Below are positions 22,458-59,361 of a stretch of 64,000 nt of DNA, piece after piece. How positions within the stretch are numbered: the first letter of the stretch is position 1; each line of letters opens with the position of its first letter. The notes beneath the pieces are model-generated. The model saw only the letters and a program-made list of their open reading frames with translations. It was not told the origin of the DNA and did not search any database. Source of the stretch: Dastarcus helophoroides (taxonomy: Eukaryota; Arthropoda; Insecta; Coleoptera; Bothrideridae); NCBI GenBank assembly GCA_028583605.1, contig CM053333.1, positions 29,801,302 to 29,865,301 on the forward strand, written 5' to 3'. The translations under genes were made by a program, and so were the position numbers.

Positions 22458-22569
22458 AGTTTTTACATAAATAACGAATTTATAACTTGTTTTTGTATAT
22501 TATTAACTGTTTGGAAGTTTAGAATAACTGTTTTGTTTTTATGCAATGTTGCATGTTGGCGATGGCCAT

Positions 22570-22775
22570 AGTTTCTCTATGGACCAATAGGTGGTAGTAC
22601 TAAGAGTCACTCGCTTGACGTCTGTGAATGTTTTAGTACTTACTTGTAGGAACATTTGTTAGCATTCGAGTTGGATATACCAAACTGACGAGATCTAACA
22701 AGATCGAAACCGGTATTTGGTTTCCAAACTTCAAATCTAATAAATGTTCGAACCTATTGATCTGTGCATATTAAA
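22570..22775 (+). repeat. Hammerhead-bearing repeat, copy 1
   Basis: About 200 bp starting around GACCAATAGGTGGTAGTACT and ending near CCTATTGATCTGTGCAT. Related copies lie at 51760-52735 (minus, interrupted) and 52760-52960 (plus). No protein is encoded. Size, lack of coding sequence and the embedded type I hammerhead resemble the small animal elements called retrozymes, or PLE terminal repeats. It directly follows the P-type transposase pseudogene, without evidence that the two belong together. Confidence 0.75.
22671..22727 (+). ncRNA. Type I hammerhead ribozyme, complete core
   Basis: All core elements are present. Inner stem I pairs ACCAAA (22679-22684) with UUUGGU (22716-22721), followed by CUGACGA (22685-22691). 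Stem II is GAUCU/AGAUC with an AACA loop (22692-22705). GAA is at 22706-22708. A three-pair stem III ACC/GGU with no loop occupies 22709-22714, and the cleavage nucleotide is A17 at 22715. An outer stem I of five pairs, UUGGA (22671-22675) with UCCAA (22723-22727), is separated by an asymmetric internal loop, as in natural fast-cleaving hammerheads. The very short stem III matches the minimal hammerheads of PLEs and retrozymes, which are thought to work better as dimers. Confidence 0.85.
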
Positions 22776-23528
22776 ATCCTTGTTTTGTTTTTGTTAATTT
22801 TATAATGTGTTTATTTTCTGTTTCATAGTTTATTTTTTTATTTATCTTTTCTTATATGTTTATGTATTTTTATGTATTATTACAGGAAAATAAAACCTTG
22901 AAATGATTTACATCTGTCCAACAAACATTTAGACAGTTGTTTTTACATAAAAGGTATATCAAAAGTTTAATGTACATACTAACTAAGCAATAATGTACAT
23001 ACAAGTTATTATAAGCGTTATGTTGATTATTTATAGTTTTTGTTCCTTCGTATATAATTATATTGTTTACTCTTTGCATTAAAATACTTTGTGTGCTTTT
23101 TTTCAGGTTTCATGTTGTCTTTAGTCATTTTTTTTATATTTATTTATTCTTTACATTTAAATACTTTCTGTGTGTTTCAGAAATCACAAGTGCTGAGGTA
23201 TTTCTGTGGGCATTAACTTTATTATTAATTTTCATTTTGTTGACTTTTTTCTGCCTCTATCTAAAATTTATGAAAAATAAATTGCTGAAATATTTGTAAA
23301 CTGCAAGACAAAATTGTCGCAGAAACAAATTTTGCCATGTAACCTGTACATTAGAATTTGACTTTGATACATTTTTCTATTCAATAATATCTACAATTTA
23401 TTTTCCAAAACACTTAGATGCAGAAAAGAATCAACAGAATGAAAAGTAGTATTCCTCTCGCAGTAAAAAGGGCAGACCTGTGAAATACTATTATTATTGT
23501 TGTTTATATTTAAAAATAAAAACTTACA

Positions 23529-34943: not shown

Positions 34944-34989
34944 ATTACCCTAAGGTAAGAACATTGGAGTCATTTCGACGCCATATCCT

Positions 34990-37137
34990 ATAATCAGTCC
35001 GAAAAAACTTTGGAATTAGAAAATCTGAAACACAAGAAGAAATTCGAATCCCTAAGTCCCAAGGTCAAAACTTATAGTTCAGTCTCAAAAACAGTAGTCA
35101 ATTTGTCTTCCCGTCCACTATCGGATAACGAACATACCATCTTATCTAAAGGACTGAATTTTGCTGTCGCCCCAAGAAAAATTCCAACTAAGGAAATAAT
35201 CAGTGCAGTAGAGTCTTCCATCAGAACTCTCCCCAAGGAGGTTGCAGATCCTATTCGTTTTCAAACCACAAAAATACTAAAACATGCCAAACCATTAAAG
35301 TCCAAAAACTGAAACACAGAACTTGTCCCCTGAAACCAAGAAAGATTAAAAAACACAACAGAGGTTGCTCTGTTTTTTAATCTTTCTTGGTTTCAGGGGA
35401 CAAGTTCTGTGTTTCAATTTTTGAAGATAACCAAGGACCAGTCCGTTCCATCAAAAATTAAAGTCCAACATTTCTAGAGAAGAAAGATGTGCTCTTAAAA
35501 CCCTAAAAATAGATTCTTCAATCACTATTCTTTAGGCTGACAAAGGTAATGCAACTGTCATCTTGGATAATTCCGAGTATGCATTCAAAATTAACGCCCT
35601 GTTGAATGACGGATCCTATATTCCTCTTCCTCGAGACCCAACAAGCAAAATTAAACGTGAACTAAAGTCGAAACTAAAATCCTCAAAATTGTCCGCAGAC
35701 ACTCTCATACATCTTGTTCCGAAAGAATCCAAACCACCTCGTCTTTATGGTCTCCCCAAAATTCACAAACCCAATATTCCTCTTAGGCCCATTGTCAGCA
35801 CGATAAATTCACCTACCTACAATGTCTCGATATTCTTATCTAACATCCTCAAGCCATATACCGGAAACACATCATCACACGTCCTAAATTGCAAACACTT
35901 TGTCGAATTATTGTCCGAATTAACCCTAGACCCCAACGACATATTAGTAAGTTTTGACGTCACTTTACTATTCACAAATGTTCCAGTTTCCGACTCCATG
36001 ACGATAATTCGTCAATTACTTTCAGGCAAAGAGAATGCAGATTCTCTAGCTGATTTAACTGAAATGTGCCTCACATCGACTTACTTTTCTTTCAATGGCA
36101 GCTTCTATAAACAAGTTTCCGGCACCCCAACGGGTTCTCCCTTATCCCCAGTCATAGCAAATATTTTCATGGAATCTTTCGAAAACACTGCGTTGGAAAC
36201 TGCGGATTTAAAACCTAAGGTTTGACTTCGTTATGTAGATGACACATTTATTGTATGGCCACATGGTAAGGATTTACTAAATTTATTTTTGGAACACCTA
36301 AACAGTTTAGATTGTTCCATTAGCTTCACTATGGAAATCGAAAACAACTTCTTCCTTTTTTTGACGTACTGGTCACCCGTTTACCAAATGGTCGCGTTTC
36401 TCATTCCGTTTATCGAAAACCCACCCATACTAATCGTTATTTGCATGCAGAGTCTCATCATCACCCTTCCCAAAAACGTTCTGTCATAAATTCACTGGTT
36501 TCACGAGCTGTAGCAATTTCATAACCGATAAATCTTTCAGACGAGGTGAACAAAATTCGTTTCAACCTCCGCAACAATGGTTACAAATCGCACGGCATTG
36601 AAACTGTCATTAAACGACATCTTCACCCTACCCCCTCGTCCTTCACAAAATTCAATAGTTTCTTCTAAAGCCTTTCTTCCTTATGTTCGCGTAGTAACAG
36701 ATCAAATCGGAAAATTATTGAGAGAACACAGCATTAAACCCATTTTTTCGTCATCCTCAAAGATCCAACAGCTCCTCCCATCTCCCAAAGATAAAATTTC
36801 ATCCTTCTGTTCTAACGCCATGTACAGGGTTCCTTGTTCTTGTGGTTCAGTGTACATCGGAGAAACGGGGCGATCATTTAAGACGCAAATATCCGAGCAC
36901 CAAAGATGTCTTAGGTCTGGTTTATTTTCACAGCCAGCCATTGCCGAACATCAACATGCGACCGGACATAAGATTCTCTTTGATAATATTTCAATTATAT
37001 CCAATATTCCCAATTACTATAATAGGAAGATGCGCGAGGCCATTGAAATCCCAAAATTCCCCAAAAACATCAACAGAGACAAAGGTTACATGCTTTCCTC
37101 CATCTGGAAACCAACCATCGGAAATTTTCAGAAGTGA
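34990..37137 (+). pseudogene. Penelope-like RT/GIY-YIG protein, broken
   Basis: N-terminal region from about 35010 (SVSKTVVNLSSRPL). After the insertion the same frame resumes at ISREERCALK. A stop lies just before ADKGNATVILDNS near 35534. RT motifs: YGLPKIHKP, SFDVTLLFTNVPV (motif A), GTPTGSPLSPVIANIFME (motif B), a stop, then RYVDDTFIVW (motif C with YVDD). Frameshifts follow near 36360, after which the thumb segment (LPNGRVSHSVYRKPTHTN) is in another frame. The GIY-YIG part is in the frame 36577-37137: MYRVPCSCGSVYIGETGR, then KTQISEHQ and AEHQHATGHKI. The PLE protein would reverse-transcribe its RNA and nick target DNA; this copy cannot make it. Confidence 0.88.
35306..35456. mobile_element. 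151-bp hairpin insertion with 12-bp target duplication
   Basis: It interrupts the PLE frame and is flanked by attaaagtccaa at 35294-35305 and 35457-35468. Inside are perfect 46-bp inverted arms (35310-35355 and 35371-35416) with a 15-nt loop, then a 40-nt single-copy tail ending AGTCCGTTCCATCAAAA. Tail and arm match the PLE terminal fragment at 13940-14160, so this is an insertion of a PLE end. Removing insert plus one duplication restores frame continuity (163 bp shift). Confidence 0.9.
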
Positions 37138-37184
37138 TCGCGCAGACGAATGGTATATAAAGTTTCCCTTTCCCTCTTTCCTGT

Positions 37185-37324
37185 CAGAAGAGTTTCGCCT
37201 CTGGTATGGTGGACATACTGAGTTACCGTGCTCTTCTGTCTAAACTTTCTTATCCTTTGTACCAATTTTCAATTCAGAAGAGTTTCGCCTCTGGTATGGT
37301 GAACATACTGAGTTACCGTGCTCT
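37185..37324 (+). repeat. 50-bp direct duplication in the PLE 3' region
   Basis: 37185-37234 and 37275-37324 are the same 50-bp word (CAGAAGAGTTTCGCCTCTGG ...) with one clear difference, period 90 bp. Confidence 0.88.
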
Positions 37325-37399
37325 GATGTTTTGAAATGGGCCTTTTCATTTTTGCATATTCCCTCATATTCCTCTCTCATTTATTTTTTCTTTTCTTTT

Positions 37400-37440
37400 T
37401 TCCTGAAGAAGCTCCCTACGATGGTGAACGAAACGTCGAA
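37400..37440 (+). ncRNA. Hammerhead-like boxes at the PLE 3' end, incomplete
   Basis: CUGAAGA at 37403-37409 (a permitted CUGANGA form) and GAAACGUC at 37430-37437 have the right order and distance. The region between them does not pair cleanly as stem II, and stem I is only about three pairs. PLEs are known to carry hammerheads here, so this is probably a decayed one. Confidence 0.4.
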
Positions 37441-37703
37441 CATTTTTAGTAGTTCTTTGACACGGTCCAATCGCGGAAGAAGTATATCCTGTAATACCCT
37501 AGGGTAAGTTTTACCAAACAGTTTATTCAATAAGTGAGCAAAGGATTAAAAATGTAGTGTTTACCAACAAATGAAAGAAAAGAAATAATTAACCAATTGT
37601 GTAATTCTAAATGTCATATCATTCATCATCCTGCTCAAATAAGTAAATTTTATTATATTCAACCATTTCTGTTAGCAGAAGATTGTTTTCACTTTAAGAA
37701 GTG

Positions 37704-51720: not shown

Positions 51721-51850
51721 TGTATAGTGGATCATAAGTAACAGTTGAGCCACAAACACTTAGCAAAGCAGTTACTCTCTAGGGCAGCCCTAAAAGACTA
51801 TAGTCTAAATGCACGGACCAATAGGCTTGAACATTTATCAGATTCAGAGT

Positions 51851-51908
51851 TCGGAAACCAACGACCGCTTTCGATCTTATTAGATCTCATCAGTTTGGTG
51901 TATCCAAC
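51851..51908 (-). ncRNA. Hammerhead ribozyme, near-complete, minus strand
   Basis: On the minus strand: ACCAAA (51899-51894), the canonical CUGAUGA (51893-51887), stem II GAUCU/AGAUC with a four-base loop (51886-51873), GAA (51872-51870), stem III AGCGGU (51869-51864), C17 at 51863, then GUUGGU (51862-51857) closing stem I. Outer GGA/UCC pairing is also present. One stem III pair (G opposite G) is lost compared with the 22.7-kb copy, which may weaken it. Cleavage site is GUC. Confidence 0.75.
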
Positions 51909-51943
51909 TCGAATGCTGACAAATGTTCCGGCAAGTATAGATA

Positions 51944-52630
51944 CAGGGTCCGCCATTAGTGCGTGGACAGAGAGTAGCTTCTAAGCCTGAAAATATATCA
52001 AAATGAAATTATGTCCAGTGGTTTACATCTATAGGGAGCACATTTTAACATTATTTTCAGTTTATTGTACCAATCATATACTTACTTTTTTTTTAAATGG
52101 AACACGCTGTATATTTTTACATATTTAAATAGTCCTATGAAAATGCAGCAAAAGTATATATGACTGTTTAGTAATGTTTGGATTTGCAAGCCTCCATCAC
52201 TCTGCATAACTAAGGAATAAATATAAGACAACATGTTTATAGCTTATGGAAACTAAAAGACTATCAATGATTAATTTTGTTGCAAATTGGTATATACTAC
52301 ATCACACTGAGGGTTTACAAATGACTGCATCGAAGTCATATCTCCTAATTTATGATCTTCCATTAGAAAAACCACCCATCGAAACCTCCATAAATTTTAA
52401 ATTATTTTGCTGGATTTTTATAGGGCTATCCAAATATGTAAAAATATATGGGGTCTTCTATTCAAATAGAGGTAAGTTTCTATTAACACTCCGTATATGA
52501 TTAGTTCAATAAAATAAAAATAATTTTAAAATGTGCTTCCAATATATGTACGTCATTGGATAAAATTTTATTTTGATTTCTTCTCAGGCTTAGGAGCTAT
52601 TCTCCATCCACGCACTAATGGCGGACCCTG
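51944..52630. mobile_element. TA-flanked element with CAGGGTCCGCC inverted ends
   Basis: The left end CAGGGTCCGCCATTAGTGCG (51944 onward) and the right end CGCACTAATGGCGGACCCTG (ending 52630) are exact inverted repeats, with further similarity for about 60 bp. TA lies on both sides (51942-51943 and 52631-52632). 687 bp, no transposase. It is inserted into the minus-strand hammerhead repeat. Confidence 0.9.
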
Positions 52631-52759: not shown

Positions 52760-52960
52760 CCAGCTCTTGTTGGAGTTGTCACCAGTTTCTTTTATAAATC
52801 AGTAGGTGGTAGTACTTAGGAGTCACATGGATGATGTCCGTTGAATCTATAGAACATACTTGCTGAAACATTTGGCAGGATTTGGGTTGGATATACCAAA
52901 CTGACGAGATCTAATACGATCGAAACCGGTACTCAAACCTATTGGCCTGTGCATTAGGAC
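52760..52960 (+). repeat. Hammerhead-bearing repeat, copy 3
   Basis: Plus-strand relative of 22570-22775, sharing AGGTGGTAGTACTTAGGAGT, GTTGGATATACCAAACTGAC and CCTATTGGCCTGTGCATTAG. The ribozyme region (52887-52931) keeps CUGACGA, a shortened stem II GAUC/GAUC, GAA and ACCGGU-A. About 45 bp after that point are deleted, removing the 3' strand of stem I, so it should be inactive. Confidence 0.75.
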
Positions 52961-53029
52961 TTTGTTATCGACTTTGGTCGAAATCGGTAGAACATACGCA
53001 GAATTGTTTCAGATATAAATAATATTTGT

Positions 53030-56995: not shown

Positions 56996-57276
56996 AAGAA
57001 GGGAAACAAATGAGACATTTTCTGCTGATGAAGGCTGCCTATTTAAAGTGGGCTTAAAATATTAAATAAAATTTAAAAATGGAAAAATATGAAGCGCGTC
57101 TTGTTTAAAATAACGAAGTTGGTGTCCATTTCCAGTATAACCGGAAATACTACAACTTTGCAAATATTTTAGTTGCATTGGATTGGCGAATTTACCAAGC
57201 TGCCAAATTTTGAAATTTTTTAGATAAGTACTTTGTTAGATATCAATAGTGGCGATTCTCGGTGGGACACTATATT

Positions 57277-58109
57277 GGGTGTAACAGGATCATGGTACAC
57301 CTCCTATTTTTTTTTATTTATGAGGATAACATTTTTAAAATTACTGCACTAGATGTACTTATTCAATGTCAATTTTCAACATTTTAACTTCTGCCACTTT
57401 TCGTAAAACTGATACCAACTTTTAATTTTTAAATATTTGTATATTATTACATTTTTGGAATCTGCATAATTTTCTAAATACAATACACCTAAAATAAATG
57501 ATTATTAAAGGATCAAAAAAATTTTGGGTTCCGTTTTATTTTTCAACGTAGAAGGCTGCGACTCATTCTAATTAATTACAATGGACCATATTAACGCTAA
57601 TTAAATCGCGTGCGTGAAAAAACAAGTATTTCCTTCTTTGACCATGTGATAAAATTAACAAAAATGGTTTTTATATCATAACTTTATTTTCTTAAATGGG
57701 ACCATAATGGTACTGTAGTACTACTAAAAACTATAATTAATGGCGAATCTAAGGTTTCCTAATTTAATTTTTTACAGCGTTAATGTGGTCGGTTAAAATT
57801 AATCTAGATGAGTCATGACCTTCTAGGTTGAAAAATAAAATTGAAAAAATCTTTGGTCCTTTAAAAACCACTTGTTTTATGTGTAATGTATTCAGAAAAT
57901 TGTGCAGATTCCAAAAATGTTGTAATATACAAGATGCTATATTTAAAAATCAAAATTGGTATCAGTTTTAGCGAAAGTCACAGCTGTACGAATGTCATTT
58001 TTGTGTCAAAATTTGACATTTTATAAGTCGATCAAATGTAGCAAGTTTGAAAATGTTACCTTCATAAATAAAGAAAAAAAAAGGGTGTACCATGATCCTG
58101 TTACACCCG
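57277..58109. mobile_element. Long foldback element with diverged arms
   Basis: It begins GGGTGTAACAGGATCATGGT and ends with its complement. At least 320 bp of each arm match with many differences (for example GATACCAACTTTTAATTTTT on the left against its inverted counterpart near 57950). The centre is about 57650-57760. A shorter related end (ATGTACCACAAATTTGTTAC) occurs near 44876. Non-coding and old. Confidence 0.82.
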
Positions 58110-58725
58110 ATATATTATTAGTAACGAGTTCACTGCTGATTAGTGCTGGTCCTATGAGTCGCATTCGCTATCATAGTGCGCCTTGTTTAAAGGCATAGAT
58201 AATGAACAGGGAAGCCGCAGAAAGAATGTAACGCTAAAAACTCGTTAATCTTGAAATTCAAAATCTTTGAGGTCCAGTATGTGAAACTTTTAGGGTCCTA
58301 TGGAAAAGATGCATTTTTAGGCAAACATGGGCAGCTTTAAAAAAAATGAACATTACATTTCCTGACCTTATAAAGCAATATAATAATAAATGTTAAACAT
58401 ATTCAAATTGGTTGAAAAGTCCATACATTGTTTTTTTCAATTTGTTTAACATTTCTTCGGCCCAGTTTGGAAATATTTAAATTTTTATGGTTTGTTGACA
58501 ATTTTATAAACAGTTTTTGAAATGCGACTACGTGATATTTAAATTTATTGAAAACGTCACTTCATGACAGTTTACAAATTAAAAGGTTAGTTTATTTTAC
58601 ATAGAATAGGAAAAATGAAAAATAGGAGACCAAAAATTAAATTAAATTAATTAAACCTATTCCTCTAACGGAACGAACGGACTCCGCAAATGGTGAGTGC
58701 TTCTAACTACCAAGCTGAATAGATT

Positions 58726-58771
58726 TCAGCGGTTAGGAACAGTAGTCACCAAGAGCATGTAAGTTCAACCC
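58726..58771 (+). promoter_or_regulatory. Possible RNA polymerase III A and B boxes
   Basis: TTCAGCGGTTAGG (58725-58737) resembles an A box. GTTCAACCC (58763-58771) fits the B-box consensus GWTCRANNC exactly. Spacing is compatible with a tRNA-derived SINE head. T runs at about 58905-58945 would be expected to stop Pol III before the ribozyme, so the role is uncertain. Confidence 0.4.
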
Positions 58772-58977
58772 ACAAGTGTAGTTCAATGCCGGAAGGGGTA
58801 TTAGCCCTCGGAGTAGTTGTTTCTTGTGGATTGGGCTTCAAATATTTAAATTTTTAACACAGTAAATTAATGATGAAACGTCTATTCATGTTAAAATTTC
58901 TCTATTTTTCTTTTTTATATTTAAAAAAAATTTTTATTTTTAAGTATTTCTTCCCCATTGTTCCCTTTCCATGTTAT

Positions 58978-59024
58978 GCACTGCTGACGAGCTCAAATGA
59001 GAGCGAAACATCGATGTCCAGTGC
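58978..59024 (+). ncRNA. Complete type I hammerhead ribozyme
   Basis: Stem I pairs GCACUG (58978-58983) with CAGUGC (59019-59024), six pairs. CUGACGA is at 58984-58990. Stem II GCUC/GAGC (58991-58994 with 59001-59004) has a 6-nt loop AAAUGA. GAA is at 59005-59007. Stem III is ACAUC/GAUGU (59008-59017), and C17 is at 59018. Every core nucleotide of the hammerhead consensus is present, so cleavage is predicted after 59018. A short outer pairing GUU (58973-58975) with AAC (59028-59030) across an internal loop is possible. Sequence and stem lengths differ from the 22.7-kb family, so this is an independent lineage. Confidence 0.92.
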
Positions 59025-59361
59025 TACAACCTCTTTTATGTATTTTTTTATATTTTCCTAATTTATCAAAAAAACAAAATTTTTATTTTTTCAATATCTA
59101 ATTTTTGGTCTCCTATTTTTCATTTTTCCTATTCTATGTAAAATAAACTAACCTTTTAATTTGTAAACTGTCATGAAGTGACGTTTTCAATAAATTTAAA
59201 TATCACGTAGTCGCATTTCAAAAACTGTTTATAAAATTGTCAACAAACCATAAAAATTTAAATATTTCCAAACTGGGCCGAAGAAATGTTAAACAAATTG
59301 AAAAAAACATAATATTTCCGGTCAATAAGGGTCTACCATGAAGAATAAGTCCATACATTGT

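Follow-up and report, generated by a model that had tools for sequence, protein, structure and literature searches.

Which machinery moves small noncoding elements that carry a hammerhead ribozyme (HHR)? For the metazoan hammerhead retrozymes this question is open, and Penelope-like elements (PLEs) are only suspected (PMC7229834; papers are cited here by PubMed Central number and for excerpts of their text). A locus in the beetle Dastarcus helophoroides bears on it. We analysed 64,000 nucleotides of contig CM053333.1 (assembly GCA_028583605.1, positions 29,801,302 to 29,865,301 of the forward strand; hereafter the window) and focused on a 915-bp noncoding insert at 58432-59346, which carries a hammerhead motif between inverted arms and is bounded by an exact 15-bp target site duplication (TSD). 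We consider it likely that the insert records one recent integration of a noncoding, HHR-bearing RNA by Penelope-type machinery, and it probably represents a new family of an already known kind of mobile element. These conclusions are based on one insertion, its anatomy and published PLE biology.

Ends, arms and tail of the insert

The two copies of the TSD (AAGTCCATACATTGT) were identical at 58417-58431 and 59347-59361, as the original prediction had claimed, and the match ended at 15 bp with no extension in either direction. The two inverted arms inside them (Table 1) matched over 208 exact bp counted inward from 58432 and 59306. Three nucleotides further outward, common to the left TSD and the start of the tail, brought the perfect stretch to 211 bp (58429-58639/59099-59309), essentially the 212 bp that had been claimed; BLAST gave 213 of 214 identical positions (58429-58642/59096-59309, one mismatch). 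An asymmetric tail followed the right arm only. That one side has a tail had been predicted correctly, but its length is 40 nt from 59307, or 37 nt without the shared ACA, instead of 36. This ACA, the first three nucleotides of the tail, is complementary to the TGT that closes the left TSD. The window holds six inverted pairs (non-overlapping, arms of at least 50 bp, within 6 kb; six from 58 raw lines), and an outer direct repeat longer than 8 bp was found in the focal pair only. Just upstream of the focal element lies another inverted repeat (57271-58114, 77% identity over 346 columns), with no outer direct repeat longer than 7 bp. The left flank at 58385-58407, 9 bp before the TSD, resembles the end of the right arm at 59281-59303 (87% over 23 nt); the likeness is AT-rich and may be due to chance or to a target that resembles the end of the element.

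An extra 30-40 nt on one of two inverted terminal repeats is not what a DNA transposon, LINE or SINE would be expected to show. PLE inserts are described as flanked by inverted pseudo-long terminal repeats (pLTRs), with an optional 31-bp tail on one of them, and by TSDs (PMC3846280). The focal insert has inverted terminal repeats (211 exact bp), a tail of 37-40 nt on the right only, the 15-bp TSD, and a type I hammerhead motif on the sense strand 5' of the tail, with sense set by the tailed end. Since published PLEs combine inverted repeats, one of which carries a 30-40-nt tail, with a sense-strand HHR and a TSD, insertion by PLE machinery is the best reading. The original prediction knew no named family to match, but the anatomy fits PLE features given in the excerpts of PMC3846280 and PMC11167929. 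Its view of a young retroposed insertion was supported.

The biochemistry of a PLE protein suggests how such an insert could arise. In vitro, both target strands are reported to be cut and extended by the purified protein, which prefers AT-rich targets. Reverse transcription begins at two neighbouring sites inside the RNA, and the tail is the stretch between them; in the anole PLE these start sites lie downstream of the HHR (PMC11167929). In the scheme that we propose for the focal locus, a staggered cut would leave 15-nt 3' overhangs, and both target 3' ends would prime reverse transcription on the 3' region of the RNA. The bottom strand would start at the outer site and copy about 704 nt, from 59346 as far as about 58643, so that the right end carries the tail, and the top strand, ending in TGT, would start at the inner site beside the ACA of the RNA and copy only about 208 nt, the left arm. 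The two cDNAs would be joined head to head, presumably within 58640-58663, which leaves the arms in inverted orientation with the 37-40-nt tail on one side only, and the target duplication would come from gap filling. We infer the PLE enzymes, the dual priming, the joining and the RNA cleavage alike, and the steps from overhang to joint are our own proposal. On the best reading the source RNA (58643-59346) would thus measure at least about 704 nt, with the left arm a by-product of integration and not a terminal inverted repeat (TIR). The arms had been predicted as part of the element; they are better read as a product of integration than as part of the RNA. The perfect arms may be read as an in vivo example of what the protein does in vitro, priming from both strands at two adjacent RNA sites, and if this is true they record one dual-strand-primed integration in vivo.

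The left arm could also have been made by PLE machinery through self-priming, that is by a template switch on antisense RNA or on the nascent strand instead of priming from the second target strand. For inverted pLTRs, arranged head to head as in the focal element, the authors of PMC3846280 favour self-priming from an antisense template, accompanied by junction palindromes, over dual-strand priming, and short AT-rich near-palindromes were seen by eye at 58640-58655. We regard this route as unlikely, because self-priming alone leaves unexplained both the difference of exactly one start site (the tail) between the two ends and the TGT/ACA complementarity at the left target end, and no long palindrome was reported at the junction. 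A foldback retroposon, with arms fixed in the element and in an RNA that would form a 208-bp hairpin with the HHR in its loop, would account for the identity of the arms and for a left arm that begins exactly at the TSD. We find it quite improbable: the tail is missing from the left arm, as predicted by two start sites and not by a fixed foldback, and the arm copied to the left ends 74 bp short of the HHR, with no visible boundary feature.

Perfect arms would likewise be given by a fold-back read or another assembly artefact. This explanation is very improbable, in that the arms end within 3 nt of the TSD and exclude the tail, whereas a fold-back would be expected to mirror flank or tail too. 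Long inverted arms would also suit a foldback DNA transposon or a miniature inverted-repeat transposable element with long TIRs, which is hardly credible here, with one terminus 40 nt off the inverted repeat, a TSD whose 15 bp are unusual for cut-and-paste families, and an HHR that acts only in RNA.

Hammerhead motif and noncoding body

The hammerhead motif was recognized on the + strand by Rfam model RF02275 (Hammerhead_HH9) at 37.5 bits (E = 1.5e-7 in a 1.4-kb stretch, E = 6.9e-6 in the window) and by a descriptor. Its core reads CTGACGA...GAAA, with stem I GCACTG/CAGTGC (6 bp), stem II GCTC/GAGC (4 bp) and stem III ACATCGATGT, which has 4 bp by the descriptor and realistically 3 bp plus a tetraloop. 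With C3 at 58984, cleavage is predicted between C59018 and 59019, the position originally claimed. The covariance model thus returned the motif at a low E value, but the score is below the RF02275 gathering score of 52, and nothing was listed at gathering level. Core, stem II and the tight stem III align over the full model, whereas the outer pairs of stem I are not kept. Judged from sequence, the motif appears to be a relative within the hammerhead clan, and 37.5 bits falls short of HH9 membership.

The descriptor, composed after the motif had been seen, found one site in the window and none in 100 Markov-1 windows. Fold energy alone was weak support for the HHR: 73 nt gave z = -0.68 (44/200 shuffles as good) and 56 nt gave z = -1.99 (5/200), a modest gain over shuffles. 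Because stem III is absent from the minimum-energy fold, which keeps stems I and II, and because the energy is modest, self-cleavage is plausible only. As the 10 nt of the stem III strand, ACATCGATGT, are self-complementary, two RNA molecules could pair there in a shared 10-bp helix; cleavage as dimers has been reported for type I HHRs whose helix III is weak (PMC7761336).

These properties bring to mind the non-LTR retrozymes of metazoans, in which a small HHR unit is copied via circular RNA. The excerpts of PMC7229834 give such elements a type I HHR with more than minimal helices, no coding sequence, low GC and a TSD longer than 4 bp, as in the focal element, and the self-complementary stem III would permit dimeric cleavage. 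We give this origin a slim chance, since the retrozymes described in PMC7229834 are tandem units of 150-450 bp, whereas the focal element carries a single HHR in a body of about 704 nt that has no internal duplication; it shows no tandem repeat, and its ends are inverted.

A second HHR family was observed at three places in the window, 22554-22800 (+), 51760-51960 (-) and 52768-52990 (+), with a unit of about 195 nt and the core CTGA[CT]GAGATCTAA..GATCGAAA. A comparison with the focal element showed no similarity at E up to 0.01. Two of the three copies have a palindromic stem III, ACCGGT; two copies gave Rfam HH9 scores of 34.1 and 30.4 bits, the hits of the family lying at 22667-22738 and 51840-51911, and the third copy has lost the 3' half of the ribozyme. 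Their size fits non-LTR retrozymes, but the copies are single and dispersed, and the inverted pair at 51.9/52.9 kb had no outer direct repeat of 7 bp or longer. Pattern scans elsewhere found the exact HHR pattern and the centre pattern in no viral contig (0 each), and a looser HHR pattern in no genome contig (0). A broad HHR pattern matched at least 120 loci in viral contigs, with 126 HHRs among the matches listed; an inverted repeat within 1.2 kb was seen in two of these at E up to 1e-8, and no sequence like the focal element was found among the listed matches by blastn.

The body 5' of the hammerhead contains a compact folded domain. Its 182 nt (58664-58845) folded better than nearly all shuffles (z = -3.39, 1/200 as good). 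Of its pieces, the long hairpin (58691-58751) gave z = -4.14 and the second hairpin (58758-58840) z = -2.30; the entire 453-nt centre gave z = -2.29. The GC content is 46% in this domain, 24-25% in the arms, 30% in the flanks, and 14% and 9% in the two stretches beside the HHR. Searched with Rfam at E up to 1, the 1.4-kb stretch gave the HHR as its sole match and no known RNA family for the folded domain.

This copy has no detectable coding sequence, in agreement with the original prediction. The longest stop-to-stop frame is 67 aa, tblastn (E up to 1) matched no piece of the window's reverse transcriptase (RT) element to the focal element, and Pfam returned two irrelevant matches only (E = 0.26 and 0.48) on six short frames of the element. 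We found in it no open reading frame (ORF) with a PLE RT and GIY-YIG endonuclease, and a PLE coding remnant was rejected on the same three results. Pol III boxes, which had been predicted as a B-box match and tRNA-like boxes in the centre, were rejected as well. The B-box agreed at 7/10 positions on the + strand, a score reached by 416/500 shuffles, and the best A-box (8/9, - strand) was reached by 97/500; both are at chance level. No tRNA gene was found, and the A and B boxes of a tRNA-type SINE are lacking; a tRNA origin was rejected too.

Source family and possible helper

The window is eukaryotic-looking, transposon-rich DNA with DDE, Mos1-type helix-turn-helix, integrase, RNase H and RT domains in Pfam. 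One of its elements is a decayed RT element that we read as a PLE (Table 1); its GIY-YIG-like and N-terminal pieces are so read by their motifs, and no library match confirmed them. Its ends carry a TSD-like pair of 16-mers, ATTACCCTAAGGTAAG and AATACCCTAGGGTAAG, 14/16 alike and nearly palindromic. The RT element suggests that PLE-like machinery exists in this genome. Since its pLTR and tail are unlike those of the focal element, it indicates a possible type of helper and is not evidence of being the helper. Homology of the focal tail or pLTR to the RT element was rejected; a likeness by eye, CGGTC..AAT, was not recovered by alignment and was dropped.

A palindrome (35303-35423, 91% over 121 bp) breaks the N-terminal part of the RT element. 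Rfam matched this palindrome to miRNA precursors and a plasmid small RNA on both strands; the best match had 70.4 bits (E = 4.6e-12), all were below gathering scores, and the hairpin is probably their cause. A 51-bp direct repeat (37184-37234/37274-37324, 98%) lies just past the stop of the last ORF piece. Near 37403 a minimal HHR-like stretch was seen by eye, which Rfam does not list. The RT fragment had no relative in the viral contigs, and an AlphaFold model of part of the endonuclease piece from a single sequence was unusable (pLDDT 35.5).

Besides the published preference for self-priming and the loss of stem III from the minimum-energy fold, several points weigh against integration of the focal RNA by PLE machinery. 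The 64-kb window holds one copy of the element, as the self-match search (listed at E < 1e-10 only) found no second there. Its pLTR and tail showed no likeness to those of the RT element (alignment scores reached by 123/300 and 1285/2000 shuffles, respectively). The 15-bp TSD is longer than the PLE TSDs of 8-10 bp in the excerpts of PMC3846280; there, TSDs of 8, 9 and 10 bp are described, and some inserts have none. The tail shows no hairpin (z = +1.65), whereas the anole PLE has an AC-rich stem-loop. No cross-mobilisation was seen between the two PLE types of a rotifer (PMC3846280). Mutation of the HHR of the anole PLE left insertion in vitro unaffected, and no HHR cleavage occurred without protein (PMC11167929), so the part of the ribozyme in mobility is unclear.

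If PLE machinery made the insertion, its source was either a truly non-autonomous family or an autonomous PLE truncated at its 5' end. We slightly favour the former, judging from the lack of a coding remnant, the compact folded domain and an HHR with helix III. The truncated PLE competes only with this half of our explanation, the integration mechanism being the same: the body would be 3' untranslated region plus pLTR, the tail would reach the start of an ORF, and the rest would be lost. It is a possibility that we take seriously, short of probable. The last letters of the tail, ACC ATG AAG AAT, could mark the start of an ORF, and HHRs occur in the pLTRs of autonomous PLEs (PMC7761336). However, the 704-nt body has no detectable remnant of an endonuclease (EN) or RT frame, the folded domain fills its 5' part, and the focal HHR possesses helix III together with a stem I of 6 bp, in contrast to PLE HHRs, for which a minimal form without helix III is described (PMC7761336; PMC7229834); none of these points is decisive. 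The focal element contains no long direct repeat, and hence no direct (partial tandem) pLTR copies. Direct copies are described for full-length PLE copies, and 5'-truncated ones may lack them.

It is possible, and we put it forward tentatively, that the insert belongs to a non-autonomous, noncoding retroposon family with a full-helix HHR and a structured RNA domain of its own, which PLE enzymes mobilise in trans and whose insertion left the PLE-specific two-start-site scar. If this reading is true, the insert would supply the physical connection so far missing between hammerhead elements of the retrozyme kind and the PLE helper suspected for them. It is a possible link from retrozymes with their ribozymes to the enzyme that is presumed to mobilise them, and an HHR-bearing noncoding RNA joined to a PLE-type scar makes the question of the retrozyme helper testable. 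Short nonautonomous Penelope elements are mentioned for butterflies (PMC6685494), so non-autonomous PLEs are not new as such. No like element was found in the titles and abstract openings of the literature matching hammerhead ribozyme, SINE, inverted repeat and Penelope, and we make no claim that the element is unpublished.

Table 1 Features of the focal insert and of the RT element in the window
Feature	Position	Strand	Basis or remark
Left TSD, AAGTCCATACATTGT	58417-58431	+	Exact 15-bp match to right copy
Left arm	58432-58639	-	Inverted copy of 59099-59306, tail absent; 208/208 bp exact
AT-rich junction, left arm to single-copy body (presumed joint)	58640-58663	.	Arms diverge at 58639/59099
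Structured RNA domain	58664-58845	+	Fold z = -3.39; 46% GC
AT- and pyrimidine-rich stretch upstream of ribozyme	58846-58968	+	Sequence
Type I HHR (predicted)	58978-59024	+	Rfam RF02275 match 58969-59041 and descriptor
Right arm, PLE pLTR-like 3' part	59099-59306	+	Exact inverted match to left arm
Asymmetric 3' tail, right arm only	59307-59346	+	40 nt, or 37 nt without shared ACA
Right TSD, AAGTCCATACATTGT	59347-59361	+	Exact 15-bp match to left copy
Decayed RT element, read as PLE	34944-37508	+	RVT_1 E = 1.5e-6, slightly under cut-off
RT element, N-terminal piece (presumed)	35031-35309	+	
RT element, RT ORF	35536-36225	+	
RT element, GIY-YIG-like piece (presumed)	36550-37137	+	

Comparison with known systems

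Metazoan non-LTR retrozymes share with the focal element a noncoding sequence, a type I HHR beyond minimal helices, a TSD longer than 4 bp and a suspected PLE helper; the focal element differs in being not tandem, with one HHR, a body of about 704 nt, and inverted ends with an asymmetric tail. In one case, a host gene of Adineta vaga, pLTRs are reported to have mobilised an unrelated gene in trans (PMC3846280). This NRPS gene, captured between Penelope pLTRs, resembles the focal element in having a non-PLE interior, PLE ends and a TSD, whereas the focal interior is a small structured noncoding RNA and not a gene. The closest anatomy is that of the EN-containing PLEs (Penelope/Poseidon; Adineta vaga Pen2a and Anolis PAc), which have inverted pLTR copies, a 30-40-nt tail on one of them, a TSD and an AT-rich target. 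In contrast to these, as far as the excerpts of their descriptions go, the focal element has no ORF, its HHR lies outside the duplicated arm and has helix III, and its TSD is 15 bp instead of 8-10 bp. With Anolis PAc it shares in addition the sense-strand HHR upstream of the tail, on the same strand and on the same side relative to the tail as in the anole PLE.
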